Assembly (NCBI GenBank): GCA_030836185.1
Contig: JAURQH010000080.1
Location: 1 to 64,000, forward strand
Origin: Planctomycetota bacterium
Lineage (GTDB): Bacteria > Planctomycetota > Planctomycetia > Planctomycetales > Planctomycetaceae
Reading direction: 5' to 3'
DNA: 64,000 nucleotides
Shown here: positions 49,489 to 58,630 of the stretch, piece after piece
How positions within the stretch are numbered: position 1 is the stretch's first letter
Layout: the number at the start of each line of letters is the position of its first letter
Translations under genes and position numbers: made by a program
Notes under the pieces: model-generated
Seen by the model: only the letters and a program-made list of their open reading frames with translations
Told to the model about the DNA's origin: nothing
The model's database searches: none

Positions 49489-52400
49489 TCACTCGTCCTC
49501 GTCGGTTGTTTCTGTTTCTGTCGAAGGGGTGGAAGGTTTCTTTTTGGTTGTTTTTTTCTTGCGGCGTGTGGGGGTACTCAAAAGTTTGAGTTGTCGTTTC
49601 ATATCACGCAAATTGATGAGCGTATGGGACAACTCGAACACAGGTTGAGGAGAGTTCCAAACGGCTCCCTGCTCACGATCAGCGATTTGATCGAGTTCTT
49701 TTTCCAATGTTTTTAGCCATAAGGGAATATCGACGGCCGATCCTGCACTCGTTGCCAGATATTCTTCGATCTCTTTTCGCAAGTCCCGGAATGCCGCGGA
49801 CGTTTCTTCACCTTGGGGAACCTCCTCAACCGCACGTGGAACGAGAGCCAACATCCGGTTGACGGCGAGCGGCTTCACAAATCGTTCTTCCAGATGATCT
49901 GCAAGAGAAGGCAAAGTCATGCCGTAACGGGATTGCAAATCTCGCAGTTTCTTGATGTGGCGTTCCGCTATTTCGGCAGAACGTAAGCGGAAGATATGTT
50001 CCCACATCAGCGCTGCTTCCCTCTTGTCCTGACGACAGAGCACTTCGTGAGCGATGGCAACAGGTGCCATCTTCCAGGCATCGCGTTCATAATCGGCTTC
50101 GATGCGCAGGAAGTCGAGAAAGCAGAAAAATTTTTCGCCGTAATCGGAATGTGTCGTGGTCGAATTGTATTCGAGAAAACGGTCGAACTTATCGACGACA
50201 GACCCGTAAATCAGTTCGAGATAATCAATCGCATCATCGCGATTAATGGCGCCTTCTTGCAAATCTTCGATGAGTCGGACGGGATGTAAAGGATCGGCAT
50301 TTTCTTCGAGATGATCGAGGAACGGATCAATTCCACTGTGCAAGATGGCTCGCACATTGCCGAGAGACAGCATGCGGGCATGAAAAAGCTCGGCTCCATA
50401 TTTGATAATGAACTCGCGAACTTCGTTCATCGTTTCATCATCGCTGAGTGCTTCAACGGTCGAGAGTCGCATCGACCGAGAATGCTTCAACCAGAGTTCC
50501 AGGTAATGTTCGACGATTTCAGAGACAAGGTCGGTGAGTTCCTCGTTACTGTAACGGCCCGATTTCCATTGACTGGAAGACGAAATCACACATTTTAATG
50601 TGCTGCTGATAGCGGTACGAAAGAGTTGATCGAATTCAGTGACCGGAGGACCAGCGGGACGAATTTCCCGTTCCATTCTGTAAGCTGTATAGAGGACTTC
50701 GTAAGTCTCGTAAACAAGTCCCATCTGTGGGAGTTGAGTCAGTAGAAAACGGAGAAAGGTCTGTAGTTTGCGGGCAGCAAGAACGGGGCCCGGTTGGCCT
50801 CCATTTTCGAAGGGGACGTACAACAAAGGTTGTTTTCGGAGACGTTCCAGCAAACGTGGTGTTAATGCACGAACCTGTTCGGGTTGACGACAAAAGATCG
50901 CCCGAAAATAATCAATCATTAGTCGTTCGTCGGGATCTTCGGCGAGTGCAGAGGACTCTTTTCCGATCAGGCATAACAATGACCACGACGCGAAATACGC
51001 ATTCACATAAGAATTGATGATCGCGTACAATAGGTGGAACTTCGATTGTAGTTGAATGTCGTATTCGACATTAGAATCGTGGTCTCCTTGACCACCTTCA
51101 ATGTCCTGCTCCCAGACAGCAACCAGCAAGCGAGTCAACTGTTTCTGGAGATCGATGGTTTTTTTATACCAGTTAAGAACGGTAGCCCGCTGCGTGTCAT
51201 TGATCGAGGAGTGATCTGTTTCGGTCGAAGAATCTTCCTCAGTCGGAGAGAACGATTCGTTGAGAGACGTGGCCGCCATTTGCCACATCTGCGATAACGA
51301 AAGCACAAATTTCAAGTGGGGCTCGAGCTCTCGGTATAACAGCTCAAATTCCGTCGGTTCAAGATTGTACCCACCATCGAGAGTCTCCCCGGAGACACCA
51401 TCTTCTGCCGAATCCTGAAAAGGAACATCTCCAAAGGCAGTTGCGAAAGGATCCTCGTCTTCGTCGTCATCCTCATCATCGAGGAAGGAATCTTCAAAAT
51501 CTGGATCGAGGAGATCATCGATGTCGTAGTCATCATCGTCATCATCAAGATCCAGGTCGAGCGCCTGATTCGTCGGAACGTCCCAATAAGGCCCTGCGTT
51601 GACTTCGATGTAGTCGAAGAAACGACTCAGTAATGACCACCGATCTTCGGGGGCTGCATGTTCAGTGACTGCCTTGACCCAGTTGCGTAACTGGTCATGA
51701 ATCGAATGAGTTCCCGATTCGAGACCGATGGTGTCGGCTTCGCTCATCCAGTGGATACAGAGCGCCATTGCGGCAACGTAATCCTGTTTACCAATCAGTG
51801 CCGTGACCAAGAGTGAATAGGCTTTTGCCGATTCAAATTCACTGACTTTAGTCCGCCAGAATGAAACATTGCCGGCTTCTTCTCCGGCGTCCCGCCAATC
51901 GAGTAACCCACTGGAGACTCGCGAGGCTGACAGGTAACTTTCGTTGCCTGAAACTTGAGGAAGATCGTCGATAGTGGTTGTGGCGTAGCGGTCCCAAAAA
52001 TGTGCCAGGACGTGGAATTTTTTCTTGATGGAATCCTGGAGTTCTGTTTTTCCCTGAGCGGCCGCTTCTCCCATCACTCGCGCGTACACACCGAAGATAG
52101 ATTCCATCAAAGAAAGTAAAATTTCGATACGATGATCGGGAACACTATCTTCCCGAGCGCTGAACAGAGGGAACTGTGCCTGGAATCCGAGAATGTTCCA
52201 GGGGTCCACAAACGCGCCACATTCGATTCCTCGATGCAGCAAAGCTTCAAGCTCACGGGCATTCTCGGCGGCTTCTTCTAACTGTCCCGCGTCGAGTTTC
52301 AAGTGTGCCGAGGTGACAAGACATTCCATCTCGGTTTCAAAACGAGCGGAAGTCGAGGGAATCACGTCCGCTTGCTGTCGGGCTTGCTGTGTGAAACCCA

Positions 52401-53565
52401 TACGAGCATAGAGATTCGCAATCTGGCGATGCTGGACCTGAGAAGCTCCGTATCGAGCCAAGTGCATGTTGAGATATTGTCGCACGTGTCCGAATGGTTG
52501 CTGTGTTCTTTTGGCAGCCTCCATCAAACGTTGTTCACGATCCCCTTCTGCCTGATCGATCAAACGGTCGTAAAAGGCGTCTCTTTGTCGGGCGACTTTT
52601 GGTAACAGTGAGGTGAGTGAAACGTCAGATGAATGTGTATCAGGGCCAGCTCCACTAATCGACGAAGCCATTAAAGCAGTACCACACAGGACAGCCGCGG
52701 CATCGTAAAGCAATTCTTCTCGCGAAATGTCGTCGTTGTCCGCCATCCAATGCAAAAGAGCATCCAAGATGATTTGGCGAATAATAAAACGAGTATAGAA
52801 ACCACTGTTGTCGATCTGATGAGGATCCCATTCGCCAAACATATAGTTGGTGCGTTTATTCACCGGGTGCATATGATCGTGGGCACGCACATCGACGGCA
52901 AGTTCCTGCATGCGGTCGAGATCAAAATACGATTCGGCCAGAATTTCGCGAGGAGTTTGCTGAAAGAATTGAATCGTCCCCGAGATCAATTCTTCGTAGG
53001 GCCCGTGAGCGACTCCCGTTTCTTTCAAATAGATGGGAACTGGTCGATATCGCTCGTGTTCATAAGGTTCCATCTGCTGTTCGTTCTCAAGCACAGCGAC
53101 CGGTCGATAGCCGATAAAATTATTGAGAGCGTGCCGAGCACCTTCCACAATGCGGTCAGTCTCGTCCCACGGACCTTGTTGTGAAAGCACAGCTTCAAAC
53201 AGACGCGCCAAGAAGTAGGGCTGATGAAACATGACCTCCTGAACGTGGAACAGCAGATCCTTATGAAAATCTCGGTATTCGGGATACAGGTGGTCGAAAG
53301 TGATTTCAATGACGCGGCGAGCCTGCGTCGCGTTCGAGAAAGTCTCTGAAGACTCTTCAAGGTTGCTGAGCGATTCTAAAAGATGGTCTCTGAGAAGTGG
53401 CTTATGGAGTCGATCAGCATAAAGCACCGATAGCTCATTCAAATGAGTCTGGAAGCTGCTATCTGGTTTACCTTCCGAAAAGTTCAGATATCCGAGCAAT
53501 TGACGGAAGCGGTCGGCTTCCCCCTGAGGATAACTGTCAGATTGTGAACTTCGGGAATCTGCCAT
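49489..53565 (-). CDS. Giant (1358-residue) soluble protein of unknown function with acidic linker
   Basis: No signal peptide or membrane segment; mostly helical throughout, with repeat-like helical pairs (for example RQIANLYARMGFTQQARQQAD, split, near residue 385) that may be TPR-like. At about residues 670-715 a strongly acidic low-complexity tract (DLDLDDDDDDYDIDD, then DDEDDDEDEDP) separates the two halves. The C-terminus is a Lys-rich then Thr/Glu-rich tail (RRKKKTTKKK, then TETTDEDE). I recognise no enzyme motif. ATG 53565 is the first in frame. Divergent from the ExbB-type operon with 450 bp between starts, so it may be its cytoplasmic partner (inference). Confidence 0.85.
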   Translation of the reverse strand: MADSRSSQSDSYPQGEADRFRQLLGYLNFSEGKPDSSFQTHLNELSVLYADRLHKPLLRDHLLESLSNLEESSETFSNATQARRVIEITFDHLYPEYRDFHKDLLFHVQEVMFHQPYFLARLFEAVLSQQGPWDETDRIVEGARHALNNFIGYRPVAVLENEQQMEPYEHERYRPVPIYLKETGVAHGPYEELISGTIQFFQQTPREILAESYFDLDRMQELAVDVRAHDHMHPVNKRTNYMFGEWDPHQIDNSGFYTRFIIRQIILDALLHWMADNDDISREELLYDAAAVLCGTALMASSISGAGPDTHSSDVSLTSLLPKVARQRDAFYDRLIDQAEGDREQRLMEAAKRTQQPFGHVRQYLNMHLARYGASQVQHRQIANLYARMGFTQQARQQADVIPSTSARFETEMECLVTSAHLKLDAGQLEEAAENARELEALLHRGIECGAFVDPWNILGFQAQFPLFSAREDSVPDHRIEILLSLMESIFGVYARVMGEAAAQGKTELQDSIKKKFHVLAHFWDRYATTTIDDLPQVSGNESYLSASRVSSGLLDWRDAGEEAGNVSFWRTKVSEFESAKAYSLLVTALIGKQDYVAAMALCIHWMSEADTIGLESGTHSIHDQLRNWVKAVTEHAAPEDRWSLLSRFFDYIEVNAGPYWDVPTNQALDLDLDDDDDDYDIDDLLDPDFEDSFLDDEDDDEDEDPFATAFGDVPFQDSAEDGVSGETLDGGYNLEPTEFELLYRELEPHLKFVLSLSQMWQMAATSLNESFSPTEEDSSTETDHSSINDTQRATVLNWYKKTIDLQKQLTRLLVAVWEQDIEGGQGDHDSNVEYDIQLQSKFHLLYAIINSYVNAYFASWSLLCLIGKESSALAEDPDERLMIDYFRAIFCRQPEQVRALTPRLLERLRKQPLLYVPFENGGQPGPVLAARKLQTFLRFLLTQLPQMGLVYETYEVLYTAYRMEREIRPAGPPVTEFDQLFRTAISSTLKCVISSSSQWKSGRYSNEELTDLVSEIVEHYLELWLKHSRSMRLSTVEALSDDETMNEVREFIIKYGAELFHARMLSLGNVRAILHSGIDPFLDHLEENADPLHPVRLIEDLQEGAINRDDAIDYLELIYGSVVDKFDRFLEYNSTTTHSDYGEKFFCFLDFLRIEADYERDAWKMAPVAIAHEVLCRQDKREAALMWEHIFRLRSAEIAERHIKKLRDLQSRYGMTLPSLADHLEERFVKPLAVNRMLALVPRAVEEVPQGEETSAAFRDLRKEIEEYLATSAGSAVDIPLWLKTLEKELDQIADREQGAVWNSPQPVFELSHTLINLRDMKRQLKLLSTPTRRKKKTTKKKPSTPSTETETTDEDE

Positions 53566-54015
53566 GGAGAGGAGTCAGTCCGCTGGAAGCATCCGTAAGG
53601 TGTTCAATTTGTTGCAAGGTATTGTCGCGTAAAGAGAAACACCTCTTTACCACGAGAGGAATCGAGCATCCAAGGATACGATTTTACGAGAAATATCTCC
53701 AGTCAGTCGGCTCCTGCCAAAAGAGAAGTTTCACGAGAGTCCTCCAGCACATTGCGACGCAGAATAGAAACTGCGGGAATATCCTTATCTAAACCGTAAA
53801 CCGCACACAGGAAATACTTTATGAACTCCCAAGAGCACTCGGCAGGAGATGCACGGGAGGATTTTAAGGAAAAGGTCAAATTTGACGGTTTTAACGCCGA
53901 TTTGATTGATAAGGGGTTTCCCCAATGCCTACGGAGAAGATGCGTACCGATTAGACACATGAAGTGTCTGGTGCGAAGACTCTTCCATCAAGGACGGATC
54001 AAAGGAGTGTCCAAA
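53566..54015. other. Divergent promoter region between the giant protein and the ExbB-type operon
   Basis: A frame in phase with the ExbB-type gene opens at 53821, but its 65 residues (CLRRRCVPIRHMKC and similar) look like translated leader, and the best ribosome site is at 54002-54007. The stretch presumably carries both promoters. No clear operator or terminator was found. Confidence 0.5.
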
Positions 54016-55230
54016 ATGTCTGCCAGTAAGAAAACCTACTCTCACGAATCCTCCTCGGCATTAGCGACGATTTCGCAATCGCCGATTTTATGGGGCGGTG
54101 CGTTCACTGTCGGCTTTTATGCAGCAATCCCGTATTTGCCACGATATCAAGAGATGGCGCAGCGATACTTCTGTAGCCATCCTTTGGAATATGCAACCAC
54201 CTATCTGTTCTTTGTGGGAATCGCCGTGCTGGTCTTCAAAGCACTGGCGGTCGGAACGGAGAAAGCCGCGTTAAGGTTTGAGCTTTTCGAGAAAATCGAC
54301 GAGGCTGACCTCGAATTCGCGGACGAACTCAAGAATCGCATCCAATCGATACCCGGACAATTCCATAACTCCTGGTTTATCTCACGCATGCGCGACATCG
54401 CCCATTATCTTCGCCCCGGACAAAGTCAAGAGTCTGTGGAGGAACACATTCGGTATCTGGCAGATCGGGCGGCTGACAAATTACACGGTAGTTATGCGTT
54501 GGTGCGAACGGTGACTTGGGCAGTTCCGATTCTCGGGTTCCTGGGCACTGTCATCGGTATCACGATGGCGATTGCCAATATTTCATTGACGGAGTTACAA
54601 ACTTCTTTGTCCGAAGTTGTTGGAGGATTGTCAGTCTCATTTGATACAACCGCACTCGCACTGACACTCTCTTTGATTTTGGTGTTTGCCTCTTTTCTTG
54701 TCGAACGGATGGAGCAACAAATTTTGAGCGAAGTGGAGGACTTGGGGATCGAGGAAGTGGCCTACCGAGTTGTTTCGAAGGATGCTCATTCTGCGAGTCC
54801 AATGGTTCAGGCGGAGAAAGAGGCAGCCGACGAACTCTTAAAGCAAACTCGCAGAATGGTCAATGAGCAGATCCAAATGTGGTCACACGCATTAGAGGGA
54901 ATGCGAAAATCATGGGTCGAGAGTCTACATTCACAGGAAAGCCAATTGAACCAGGCGATTCGACAATCTCTGGAACAGACTCTCGAATCTTGGCAAAAAG
55001 AACTGCGGTCGGGTTCCAATCAATTATCCGATCATCAAGCAGAACTGGTTACACAAACAAAACTGCTGACACAATTACTTGATCGGGAGGAATCTCTGGC
55101 CTCCGTCAGCGATCGGCTCAATGAAAACCTGACGGCTATTACTGCCAGCAATAAATTGGAAGAAGTTTTGCACAACTTGAATGCCGCCGTTCACCTGTTG
55201 ACTTCAAAATCTTTAAATCGTGCTGCTTGA
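54016..55230 (+). CDS. MotA/TolQ/ExbB-type proton channel protein
   Basis: A 404-residue inner-membrane protein; ATG 54016 has AAGGAG 8 bases upstream. Two N-terminal membrane segments (ILWGGAFTVGFYAAI; YLFFVGIAVLVFKAL) are followed by a cytosolic domain, and then the two signature helices: VTWAVPILGFLGTVIGITMA and FDTTALALTLSLILVFASFLV. These match the pore helices of MotA/TolQ/ExbB. The C-terminal about 130 residues are coiled coil (KEAADELLKQTRRMVNEQI; SQLNQAIRQSLEQTLESWQ), longer than in ExbB or TolQ. Followed after 51 bp by two ExbD-like genes. Confidence 0.9.
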   Translation: MSASKKTYSHESSSALATISQSPILWGGAFTVGFYAAIPYLPRYQEMAQRYFCSHPLEYATTYLFFVGIAVLVFKALAVGTEKAALRFELFEKIDEADLEFADELKNRIQSIPGQFHNSWFISRMRDIAHYLRPGQSQESVEEHIRYLADRAADKLHGSYALVRTVTWAVPILGFLGTVIGITMAIANISLTELQTSLSEVVGGLSVSFDTTALALTLSLILVFASFLVERMEQQILSEVEDLGIEEVAYRVVSKDAHSASPMVQAEKEAADELLKQTRRMVNEQIQMWSHALEGMRKSWVESLHSQESQLNQAIRQSLEQTLESWQKELRSGSNQLSDHQAELVTQTKLLTQLLDREESLASVSDRLNENLTAITASNKLEEVLHNLNAAVHLLTSKSLNRAA

Positions 55231-55281
55231 TCGCACCTCTTCGCTGTTATGAATGACCGTTTTTGATTTCTGGAATCGTCC

Positions 55282-57426
55282 ATGAGTCGTCGTGCTCGTC
55301 AAAATACATCCGTATCACTCTTCCCGTTTCTGGCGGTGTTGTTGTGCGCGATGGGAGCACTGTTGGTTCTATTAGTGATTACGACAAGACAAATTCGAGA
55401 AGATGCGATTCGAGTGGCAGAAGAAAAAAAATCTCAACCGATTGTCAAACAAAAGGCAAAACCAGCGCAGGAAGAATGGCCCGATTGGAGTATCGATCTC
55501 GGGGAATCGACTCTTTTAGCAACGCGAAAACACCCTCAGCCTGCAGCCGCCCCTTTACAAGCTCCCAAACCGATTTATGAGAAAACCGAAGGAACACCGG
55601 CTCCACCTGATCTTTCAGCAGGTCTGAAACGCCTTCGTGCGAAACTCAACCGCCTCCAAGAGACGCAATCGGGAGCATCAGCGGATGTAAAAATGATCGT
55701 TGATCAAACCACTGCGATACAAACCGAGATCATCAAGCGGGAAAAGATACTCAAGTATGCCTTAACTGCAATGGACCAGATCAAAAAGCGAGATCAGCAA
55801 ACGAGTGCAGAGTTGAACGACTTACAACAAAAAACGCTTCAGCTTTCTCAGGATCTACAAGCAAAACGTGCCAAGAATCAAAAACTGGCGAACGCCCCTC
55901 GTAACACCCCTAATGTCTTAAAAGTCGTCCCTTACGAAGGTCAAAGCGGAACAACGCGACGACCAATCTTGATTGAATGCACGGCGGGAATTATTCGATT
56001 TGTTCCTGAAGGAATCGAATTGAAAGAAAGGGACTTGGTGGGATTTTCCGTCCAAGACAACCCGCTATTATCTGGCGTTTTAGCTGCTGAAGAATATTGG
56101 ATGAAACGGGATCAAAGCGTGGGAGACATCAATCGTCCTTATGTCTTGATCGTGGTACGTCCCGATGGCATTCCCGCCTACTACGGTGCGAGACAGCTTC
56201 TGCAAAATTACAAGCAGCGATTCGGGTATGAGCTCGTTGATCAGGATCAAAAACTTGCCTCTCCACAAATTGATCCCGTTGCTCAAACGGCGATTCAGCG
56301 TGCCGTCGATGAAAACATCAAAAAACGCGGCGCTCCACCGCGAATGGCACAAGCTTTATTTCCTAGCTACGACCCACGAGAACTGGAACAGACACTGTCT
56401 GGTGGTTCTCTGTCAGGCGACCGTATCGGTGGCACTTTGAATGATTCATCGTCGGGAGACTCTCGACCGAATGGGATGGGGCAGACCGGAAGCGGCAAGG
56501 ATGGGGAACAACAAAAGGTCCCGGACAGAAGATTCAAGTTCGTGCAAACGTCCCAAGGATTGGTGAAAGTTCCGCTTATTGATGCAGATATGAAATCCTT
56601 TCGGCGAAATGATGGTTCTTCCACCGGTTCTGAGCGTGGGTTCAAAAGCACGACAGGGCCGAATAATGATGGACCAACGGAACCGAAGCTGATTAAGCCG
56701 GGAATTCCGTCTGCTGGAAGTCGTCAAATCACTGAGTTTCCCCGCTCGACTACCAATAGGACTGACCGTCCATCGGGAGAACCGTTATCTGGAACTGGAA
56801 GTCAGACCACAACCCAAGGTGCGAACTCTCAAAACGATAGCCAGAACATTTCGTCGGGTGAGCCAACCAGCCAATCAGCATCTGCCGAACGTTTGTCCTC
56901 GCTTCCAGCAAACGCACCGGATGCTTTGACACCGATTCTCCAGGAACGGGCTCGTCAGCTTGCCAACGGAACTGGGCAGGGTGAGAGCAACAACTCGTCA
57001 GGACAGAATGATCCCCAAACGTCACAAGGGGAGGGGGGGGCAAGTTCATCTGGTCAACCCGGTTCTCCGGGGCAGGGGAGAGGGCGCCCATCACAACCGG
57101 TCAAAAAAATGCCATTTGAACGACCGTTACGCGTGGCAATATCTGATCGTGGTTTGCGAGTCGATGAACGAGACGCGATTGCATTACCATCCAATTTGAA
57201 AACTCAGCAATTGATGAATCTTACGGTCGAAGAGCTACGGAATCGTGTGAAGGAATGGCCGGCTCCTCCCGAGCAGTTTTACTGGCGACCGATGGTGAAG
57301 TTCTACGTCTATCCGAATGGTCAGAAAAACTACGAACGACTCAAGCCATACTTCGAAAAACAAGGACTTCTGTCTGACGTGAAATACGTGGAATCGATTC
57401 CGAATCAGGAAGGAAGCCGAAACTGA
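55282..57426 (+). CDS. ExbD/TolR-like protein with repeated periplasmic domains
   Basis: A 714-residue bitopic protein. One membrane segment near residues 13-34 (LFPFLAVLLCAMGALLVLLV), then a coiled coil (about 110-205), a domain with ILIECTAGIIRFVPEGIEL, and YVLIVVRPDGIPAYYGARQLL, which resembles the ExbD periplasmic fold. A Ser/Gly/Gln/Asn-rich linker (about 375-600) follows, then a second similar unit ending in VKFYVYPNGQKNYERLKPYF. No acidic residue occurs in the membrane segment, unlike ExbD, TolR or MotB. It ends 1 bp before the next gene. Confidence 0.8.
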   Translation: MSRRARQNTSVSLFPFLAVLLCAMGALLVLLVITTRQIREDAIRVAEEKKSQPIVKQKAKPAQEEWPDWSIDLGESTLLATRKHPQPAAAPLQAPKPIYEKTEGTPAPPDLSAGLKRLRAKLNRLQETQSGASADVKMIVDQTTAIQTEIIKREKILKYALTAMDQIKKRDQQTSAELNDLQQKTLQLSQDLQAKRAKNQKLANAPRNTPNVLKVVPYEGQSGTTRRPILIECTAGIIRFVPEGIELKERDLVGFSVQDNPLLSGVLAAEEYWMKRDQSVGDINRPYVLIVVRPDGIPAYYGARQLLQNYKQRFGYELVDQDQKLASPQIDPVAQTAIQRAVDENIKKRGAPPRMAQALFPSYDPRELEQTLSGGSLSGDRIGGTLNDSSSGDSRPNGMGQTGSGKDGEQQKVPDRRFKFVQTSQGLVKVPLIDADMKSFRRNDGSSTGSERGFKSTTGPNNDGPTEPKLIKPGIPSAGSRQITEFPRSTTNRTDRPSGEPLSGTGSQTTTQGANSQNDSQNISSGEPTSQSASAERLSSLPANAPDALTPILQERARQLANGTGQGESNNSSGQNDPQTSQGEGGASSSGQPGSPGQGRGRPSQPVKKMPFERPLRVAISDRGLRVDERDAIALPSNLKTQQLMNLTVEELRNRVKEWPAPPEQFYWRPMVKFYVYPNGQKNYERLKPYFEKQGLLSDVKYVESIPNQEGSRN

Positions 57427-57427
57427 T

Positions 57428-58630
57428 ATGTCACGACGACGTTCCCAACAGCAAAGTGACGCCGAGATTAGCTCGGATTCCTTTCTCGATATCATTGCCA
57501 ACATTGTCGGCATCCTCATCATTCTGATTGTGGTGGCTGGAATGCGCGTCAGTCAGGCTCCTATTTTTCAAGAGACCGCGCCGCCAGATGCAAAAGATAT
57601 CGGCGTTCCAGAATCGACATCCGCAGAAGCTCCCCGAGTGATCATAGGAACTACGAATGCAAAATTGTGGAGTCCCTCACCAGCCCTACAAGCTGAGCCC
57701 ATTGAGCCAGCAGAGCCAGTCGTTATCAAAATCGTTGATAATCCTGATCCCGAACTCTTTGCGGTTCACAAACGACAAACTCTCGAACTTCAAAGGCTGT
57801 CGACCGAAATCACTGCCATTCAGTCAGGTCTCACCGACAAACAACGCTCCACCGCAAATGCGGAAGAGGAGTTTTCGCTCGTTCAAGCGCGACTCGGAAA
57901 TCTTCACAACGAACTGAGAGAAGCAAAATCGAGATATGAAGCTGCAAAGATGTCCTCTGAAGATAAAAAGAAAATTATCGAGTCCCGGCGACAAGACGCG
58001 GAACAATTGGTTTCACTGATCGAGAAGGCAGATGCCGAACAGCAGAAGCTGGCGAAGACAGCTCCTCCCGATGCTGAAGTCTTACGGCACGACATGACTC
58101 CTGTAAGCAGCTTTGTGAAAGACGACGAAATCCATTTTCTCGTTTCAAACAGCTCTGTCTCGCAAGTTCCGTTGGATGCTTTTTTGACACAGTTAAAAAG
58201 CCGCATACAGACCAAGCAAAGCTGGCTACTTCGAGCCAATTCTCATACCGGAGAAATAGGTCCGCTGAACGGGTTTGTGATGAAGTATGTGGTCGAAAAA
58301 GAACAGCAGTCGCATTTCGATCAATTACGAACGGGGAGTTCACAGATTCGAATTGTACTCTCTCAATTTGCGATGATCCCCGACGAAAAAACGATTATTC
58401 GAGAGACGGTCGCGCAAGCGACCAGTTCGACATCGCGTTTTTTGATCGCGATTCGATCCGCATCACCGGGAACAACTTGCACGTTTTGGGTTCATCCTGA
58501 CAGTTTCGAGACTTATCAGAAACTCAAAACTTTCGCTCACGAAAGCAACCTGCAAGTCGCGGGTCGCCCTTTGCCACAAGGAATGCCGATTACTGGCTCA
58601 CCTTCGGGATCACGCTCCGCAGCACAATAA
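57428..58630 (+). CDS. ExbD/TolR-like protein with membrane aspartate
   Basis: A 400-residue bitopic protein. The membrane segment FLDIIANIVGILIILIVV begins near residue 19 and carries Asp21 in the position of the proton-carrying Asp of ExbD/TolR. A coiled coil follows (about 120-205; LEQ/LQRLSTEITAIQSGL, ESRRQDAEQLVSLIEKAD), then a periplasmic domain with EIHFLVSNSSVSQVPLDAFL and TFWVHPDSFETYQKLKTFA, matching the P-x-G-x3-Y pattern of its neighbour. Likely partners of the ExbB-type channel; three genes form one operon. Confidence 0.82.
   Translation: MSRRRSQQQSDAEISSDSFLDIIANIVGILIILIVVAGMRVSQAPIFQETAPPDAKDIGVPESTSAEAPRVIIGTTNAKLWSPSPALQAEPIEPAEPVVIKIVDNPDPELFAVHKRQTLELQRLSTEITAIQSGLTDKQRSTANAEEEFSLVQARLGNLHNELREAKSRYEAAKMSSEDKKKIIESRRQDAEQLVSLIEKADAEQQKLAKTAPPDAEVLRHDMTPVSSFVKDDEIHFLVSNSSVSQVPLDAFLTQLKSRIQTKQSWLLRANSHTGEIGPLNGFVMKYVVEKEQQSHFDQLRTGSSQIRIVLSQFAMIPDEKTIIRETVAQATSSTSRFLIAIRSASPGTTCTFWVHPDSFETYQKLKTFAHESNLQVAGRPLPQGMPITGSPSGSRSAAQ

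Follow-up and report, generated by a model that had tools for sequence, protein, structure and literature searches.

Results

Three co-directional genes lie head to tail at positions 54016-58630 (+) of a 64,000-nucleotide stretch of DNA from a Planctomycetota bacterium (family Planctomycetaceae; assembly GCA_030836185.1, contig JAURQH010000080.1, positions 1 to 64,000), hereafter the window. The first encodes a MotA/TolQ/ExbB-type pore protein, and the second and third encode two unlike bitopic proteins that we refer to as D1 and D2. A membrane aspartate at the start of the helix, a trait of ExbD/TolR proteins, is present in D2 and missing from window D1. A preliminary description had read the locus as an ion-motor type operon with two unequal subunits, a reading supported here, and had begun it at 53566, which is only the edge of a divergent upstream gene. 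The features are listed below, with model confidence as predicted local distance difference test (pLDDT) values.

54016..55230, +: MotA/TolQ/ExbB-type pore protein, 404 residues, with a long C-terminal helical tail (PF01618, E = 1e-14; PADLOC ZorA model; relatives)
54547..54651, +: pore-helix residues Thr178 (54547), Thr183 (54562), Asp210 (54643), Thr211 (54646) and Thr212 (54649) (alignment A5, residue table)
54703..55227, +: C-terminal tail of the MotA-type protein, its end conserved, with a final Ala-Ala (alignment A5; cytoplasmic side by predicted topology)
55282..57426, +: D1, bitopic subunit, 714 residues, without a membrane Asp
55333..55335, +: D1 Ala18, codon GCG, the site homologous to D2 Asp21 (helix alignment, residue census)
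55612..55893, +: D1 coiled coil, about residues 111-204, expected to be periplasmic (helices in the model, block pLDDT about 46-77)
55906..56316, +: D1 lobe 1, residues 209-345 (homologous to lobe 2; hhalign 96%, 0/60 shuffles)
56329..57111, +: D1 linker, low-complexity Gly/Ser/Gln/Thr/Pro, residues 350-610, about 260 residues (composition; pLDDT < 50)
57094..57387, +: D1 lobe 2, residues 605-702, weakly resembling the ExbD periplasmic domain (hhalign 16.7%, 0/60 shuffles)
57428..58630, +: D2, bitopic subunit, 400 residues, with membrane Asp21
57488..57490, +: D2 Asp21, codon GAT (Asp in 126/126 D2 copies read)
57749..58060, +: D2 coiled coil, residues 108-211, expected to be periplasmic (helix, block pLDDT mostly 75-89)
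58073..58627, +: D2 C-terminal lobe with the conserved end RPLPxGxPIxGSPxGSxSxxQ (alignment A1)

The MotA-type open reading frame extends back to 53821; its likely start is 54016, because the L015 ortholog is also 404 residues long and begins at the matching Met. PF01618 matches the protein with 54.8 bits against a curated cut-off of 22.9. Thr178 and Thr212 are present in the window and in the main residue classes, Thr212 being invariant in the 28 rows of alignment A5, and by our own reading of the motifs they may be the counterparts of ExbB Thr148 and Thr181 (numbering of PMC12905483). D1 and D2 each have a single hydrophobic helix: residues 16-34 in D1, with Ala18 and neither Asp nor Glu, and residues 19-37 in D2, with Asp21 inside. 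Because this helix lies near a basic N-terminus in each, the bodies of both proteins are expected to be periplasmic. The long MotA-type tail, which the preliminary description had placed in the periplasm, follows the last membrane helix and by the predicted topology should be cytoplasmic, as the ZorA tail is described to be (PMC11890865). Single-chain predictions from three-row alignments reached a mean pLDDT of 51.5 for D2 and 40.9 for D1.

Within the window genome, D1 is the lone exception among the ExbD-like proteins found. This genome holds six PF01618 loci, the window's included, and seven PF02472 loci. All seven PF02472 proteins retain the Asp, both members of three ExbB-ExbD-ExbD triads among them, and it is also kept in an eighth ExbD-like protein, whose gene neighbours another PF01618 gene.

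The same asymmetry extends across relatives. The census comprised the window and loci L014, L015, L072-L099, L112-L169 and L199-L298, and is neither a random nor a full sample: L072-L111 were hand-picked from profile-search matches, and 98 family regions were taken whose matches, among those listed, started at or near the profile start, so that deeper-starting matches were left out (for example G009, G020, G004, G434, G494, G478, G465 and G518). Among 142 non-identical D1 copies, some of them near-identical and with three fragments lacking the site left out, the site holds Ala in 123, Asp in 14 and Thr in 5; the D2 site is Asp in 126/126 copies. The missing membrane Asp first noted in the window thus holds for 128/142 copies. 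A single Asp per D1-D2 pair, also expected from the outset, is the rule and not universal, given the 14 Asp-type copies. The helix interior is free of acidic residues in 114 Ala/Thr-type rows, with an edge Glu in two rows and a Lys inside one, and the positions neighbouring the site are nearly invariant. Ala is encoded by all four of its codons, and Asp by GAC in 13 copies and GAT in 1.

Ten more distant triads (L102-L111), chosen by hand among the weaker matches of profile searches, form a second clan in which the D1 site is Ser in 10/10 and D2 carries Asp18 in 10/10. Because this clan shares the asymmetry, the latter is probably older than the motor family of the window. Switching between Ala and Asp is recurrent: on a tree of D1 and D2 built without the site column, the D1 Asp state changes 6 times. 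The tree has 126 rows and includes 12 of the 14 Asp copies; the other two, in L268 and L270, lack D2 and lie outside the D1+D2 trees. Its ten rows from other families are all Ala or Thr at the site and, because of this and the six changes, Asp looks to have been gained several times rather than lost, on a tree for which no root was inferred.

Could Ala18 be the plain decay of a redundant Asp, with no functional meaning? The occurrence of Asp-type and Ala-type D1 together in one family would be compatible with decay. Counting against it are the restriction of the site to Ala, Thr or Asp in the 142 copies and to Ser in the second clan, the near invariance of the adjacent helix positions, and the apparent gain, not loss, of Asp relative to the other-family rows. 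We regard decay as very improbable.

The D1 profile found matches in 144/150 sampled genomes of the family and in 118/119 of the high-quality ones. A few of these matches are weak (weakest 8.9e-6 among the matches listed), and the weakest may reflect the coiled coil only. The D2 profile matched 111/392 genomes of the phylum at E <= 0.001. Strong matches (E < 1e-50) make up 47 of the 111 by hand count from the listing, all in the class of the window; the others are weak, partial or, where inspected, belong to the second clan.

Gene order, which the preliminary description had named as a check, is conserved. D2 immediately follows D1 in 127/127 copies with room for it, 15 further copies stopping at contig ends, and a MotA-type gene lies immediately upstream of D1 in 122/139 copies with room. 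In the window D2 begins one base past the D1 stop, and in 94/125 copies the D2 helix motif comes 20-75 nucleotides after the stop of D1. Of the 17 copies without an adjacent upstream MotA-type gene, 16 have a strong MotA-type match elsewhere in the genome, and seven of those 16 have it downstream of D2 in the same orientation. The remaining copy is from G502, a genome 64% complete, in which there is no strong MotA-type match.

This linkage bears on the idea that one MotA-type ring serves both D2-D2 and D1-D1 homodimers, the former conducting and the latter not, with D1 acting as an inhibitor or regulator. An axle of identical subunits is usual in the known 5:2 motors as they are described (PMC9389320, PMC12905483), and a dimer without Asp would be expected to be inactive, as the idea requires. 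The invariable adjacency of D1 and D2 argues against separate homodimers, which we consider quite improbable.

Profile comparison shows that the D1 and D2 helices are homologous in register: they align without a gap (hhalign 96%, 0/60 column shuffles as good), with Ala18 opposite Asp21. The full profiles match at 98% over their N-terminal parts, to which the coiled coil contributes. Lobes 1 and 2 of D1 are a duplication (hhalign probability 96%, 0/60 column shuffles as good), confirming an early suspicion that lobes had been duplicated. Lobe 2 somewhat resembles the D2 lobe (35%, 0/60 shuffles as good), and lobe 1 shows no likeness to it (38/60). When set against the periplasmic domain of ExbD, lobe 2 is weakly similar (16.7%, 0/60), and the matches of D1 lobe 1 (6/60) and the D2 lobe (2/60) are less separable from chance. 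Of the two Pfam families expected at the locus, PF01618 matches the first protein (1e-14) and PF02472 matches neither D1 nor D2. Among the best 60 matches listed, PDB profile searches with D1 and D2 gave, as judged, coiled coil only, and their Pfam and NCBIfam matches were likewise judged to be coiled coil only. For D1 and D2, "ExbD-like" is at most a likeness at the level of the fold, without Pfam membership, and the label given earlier was too strong.

A different role for D1 has to be weighed here. D2 could form a homodimer with two Asp in the pore, with D1 a TonB/TolA-like transducer outside the pentamer whose linker reaches into the periplasm. With its helix, extended low-complexity linker and terminal lobe, D1 is built like a force transducer, and side-bound helices are described in the Ton and Tol motors (PMC12905483). 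For TonB and TolA an SHLS motif, with its His, has been described (PMC12204202); the 114 Ala/Thr rows showed no His in helix columns 12-30. The in-register homology of the D1 helix to the D2 helix also counts against a transducer, as does the repeated appearance of Asp in D1 at the Asp site of D2, together with changes in the MotA pore, for which binding at the side gives no reason. We judge this arrangement unlikely.

Those changes in the pore concern first Thr183. It is present in 113/122 readable MotA partners of Ala/Thr-type D1 and absent from 14/14 partners of Asp-type D1. The D1 site and Thr183 change in concert in six of six independent pairs (median p = 0.031; 0.031-0.0625 depending on the pairing). 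Asp210 follows a similar pattern, with 108/121 readable partners of Ala/Thr-type D1 carrying it vs 1/14 partners of Asp-type D1. Together with the in-register homology, this covariation supports a D1 helix that faces the pore, so that the placement of D1 inside the pore, as first proposed, gains indirect backing. By comparison, D1 and D2 homodimers sharing a ring would give the Asp-type lineages two active motors and would leave unexplained why the MotA partner changes with D1.

Twelve of the 14 MotA partners of Asp-type D1 belong to one type, which we call N-type (HFG/NTT motif); those in G464 and G479 show other losses. On a quick tree a single branch separates the N-type proteins, 20 rows with two orphans, from the others (Shimodaira-Hasegawa-like approximate likelihood ratio test, SH-aLRT, 100), and the change is therefore mainly an exchange of partner type, not of a single residue. 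Compared within one genus, the two partner types share only about 28-29% identity. Genus g337 contains six D1-Asp genomes with an N-type MotA gene downstream of D2. In another member, G541 (L260), D1 is Ala-type, the upstream MotA gene is D-type, and a broken remnant of an N-type gene lies downstream of D2; the remnant is 83% identical to the N-type protein of G537 over residues 19-144. Lying near an intact D-type gene, it looks as if the partner had been exchanged recently. N-type MotA genes without nearby D1 or D2 occur at L101 (G009:C712) and L100 (G048:C322), and the one at L101 adjoins apparent flagellar MotA and MotB genes, judged by eye.

Other observations concern the ends of the proteins and the upstream neighbour. 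The Ala-Ala C-terminus of the MotA-type protein is found in 117/121 linked copies within a conserved C-terminal segment, which suggests a cytoplasmic partner or a degradation signal. The last residue of D2 is Gln in 118/126 copies. The divergent gene at 49489-53565 (-) encodes 1358 residues without a significant family match and also adjoins the operon in L077, L079, L086 and L091; a link between its product and the motor is possible.

Discussion

We interpret the locus as encoding a 5:2-type ion motor whose axle would be formed by D1 and D2, two different and co-evolved proteins of which usually only D2 carries the Asp. Judged from sequence comparison, this is a reasonably probable reading. 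Five MotA-type subunits would surround one D1 and one D2. In most species the ion-binding Asp would be on D2 only, with Ala or Thr at the same level of the D1 helix. Passage by Asp21 of whichever ion the motor would use may turn ring and axle relative to each other. One Asp would then give steps of about 72 degrees and five ions per turn, compared with the 36 degrees proposed for motors with two Asp; Asp210 of MotA, as a further acidic site, could be an exception to such stepping. Motion would reach the periplasm through the coiled coil, two lobes and long linker of D1, and the MotA-type protein would have its ZorA-like tail on the cytoplasmic side. Because the system is near-universal in the family, our guess for its cellular role is envelope maintenance.

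A more detailed proposal is possible, and we put it forward tentatively. The motor may be a heterodimeric, single-Asp machine whose axle and ring trade polar and acidic sites of the pore. Pairs of D1 and D2 would have been switched between two MotA partner types, with D1 bearing Asp only alongside a partner that lacks Thr183 and mostly lacks Asp210. Per turn, the usual form would consume half as many ions as known motors do. The Asp-type lineages, which account for six changes on the tree, would be natural two-Asp versions.

Several results weigh against an axle of D1 and D2 coupled to the pore. The coupling of the D1 site to Thr183 is one-way, and the converse fails: among 13 independent pairs differing in Thr183, D1 differs in 6 and is the same in 7, and partners lacking Thr183 also occur with nine Ala-type copies, six of these partners being N-type. 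The sign test amounts to six events on a quick tree and, where the genes lie apart, the partner was assumed to be the best MotA-type match of the genome. The Asp210 contrast does not reach significance when tested by pairs (4 same, 0 opposite, 2 tied, p = 0.125). The helices of D1 and D2 resemble those of ExbD weakly (1/60 and 6/60 shuffles as good); window D1 and D2 have no PF02472 (ExbD) match at E <= 1, and this family matches 0/28 rows of each D1/D2 alignment at E <= 0.01. The single-chain models leave the lobes of both proteins mostly at pLDDT < 50. Lastly, the D1 profile has no match in 6/150 family genomes, and neither D1 nor D2 was detected in G161, a family member whose genome is a single contig; the system is thus dispensable somewhere.

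Known ion motors have matched pairs in the axle, and many planctomycetes probably have one built from two different proteins. Present 5:2 motor models rest on two equal axle Asp that alternate in 36-degree steps. If true, a conserved one-Asp motor beside close two-Asp relatives would provide a direct test of the need for the second Asp, and of how the number of ions per turn is determined. Such a motor would, moreover, add a large and near-universal machine to the planctomycetes, whose envelope biology is poorly understood.

Comparison with known systems

In its long C-terminal tail the MotA-type protein resembles ZorA. The PADLOC model PDLC00635 matches 28/28 rows of alignment A5 at E <= 1e-5, and the best PDB matches of the A5 profile are 8VVN (7.4e-07) and 8VVI (1.3e-05), described as type I and II ZorAB (PMC11890865). 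Zorya has one ZorB, whereas the window operon has two unlike axle subunits. In a PADLOC scan that covered D1, D2 and, of the neighbours, the upstream gene alone, neither D1 nor D2 matched ZorB and the upstream gene matched no effector. Despite the ZorA matches, membership in Zorya was rejected for want of a ZorB. Zorya-type defence systems are sporadic in occurrence, unlike D1, which was matched in 144/150 family genomes.

ExbBD and TolQR have a pentamer in which Thr is conserved, around bitopic axle proteins that bear Asp, much as proposed for the window operon. They differ in that the axle is a dimer of a single kind of subunit, a member of PF02472. In one published model the two axle Asp exchange protonation as the ring turns 36 degrees (PMC12905483). 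The available portions of the literature searched describe no Asp-less paired ExbD, and the main text of the essential-gene paper on Planctopirus limnophila (PMC10632474) contains none of the six terms sought.

Similar in gene order are loci of the Planctomycetes-Verrucomicrobia-Chlamydiae (PVC) group, in which a tolQ-like gene is followed by a pair of unlike tolR-like genes (PMC12204202). This order resembles the window triad, and the available part of that account leaves a missing Asp unmentioned. The TPR and vWA order of the PVC-group loci was not seen near D1/D2 loci, where neighbours were judged by eye and sequences were left uncompared. Overlap between the window triads and these loci is possible.

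The gliding motor of Myxococcus, AglRQS, is likewise reported to cluster one MotA-like and two distinct ExbD/TolR-like subunits (PMC3169522). AglQ and AglS are PF02472 members of 162 and 194 residues (PMC3169522), and whether they pair as hetero- or homodimers is stated to be unknown (PMC9389320). Both are described with the conserved Asp (PMC9389320), whereas D1 of the window, like 128/142 D1 copies, is without it.

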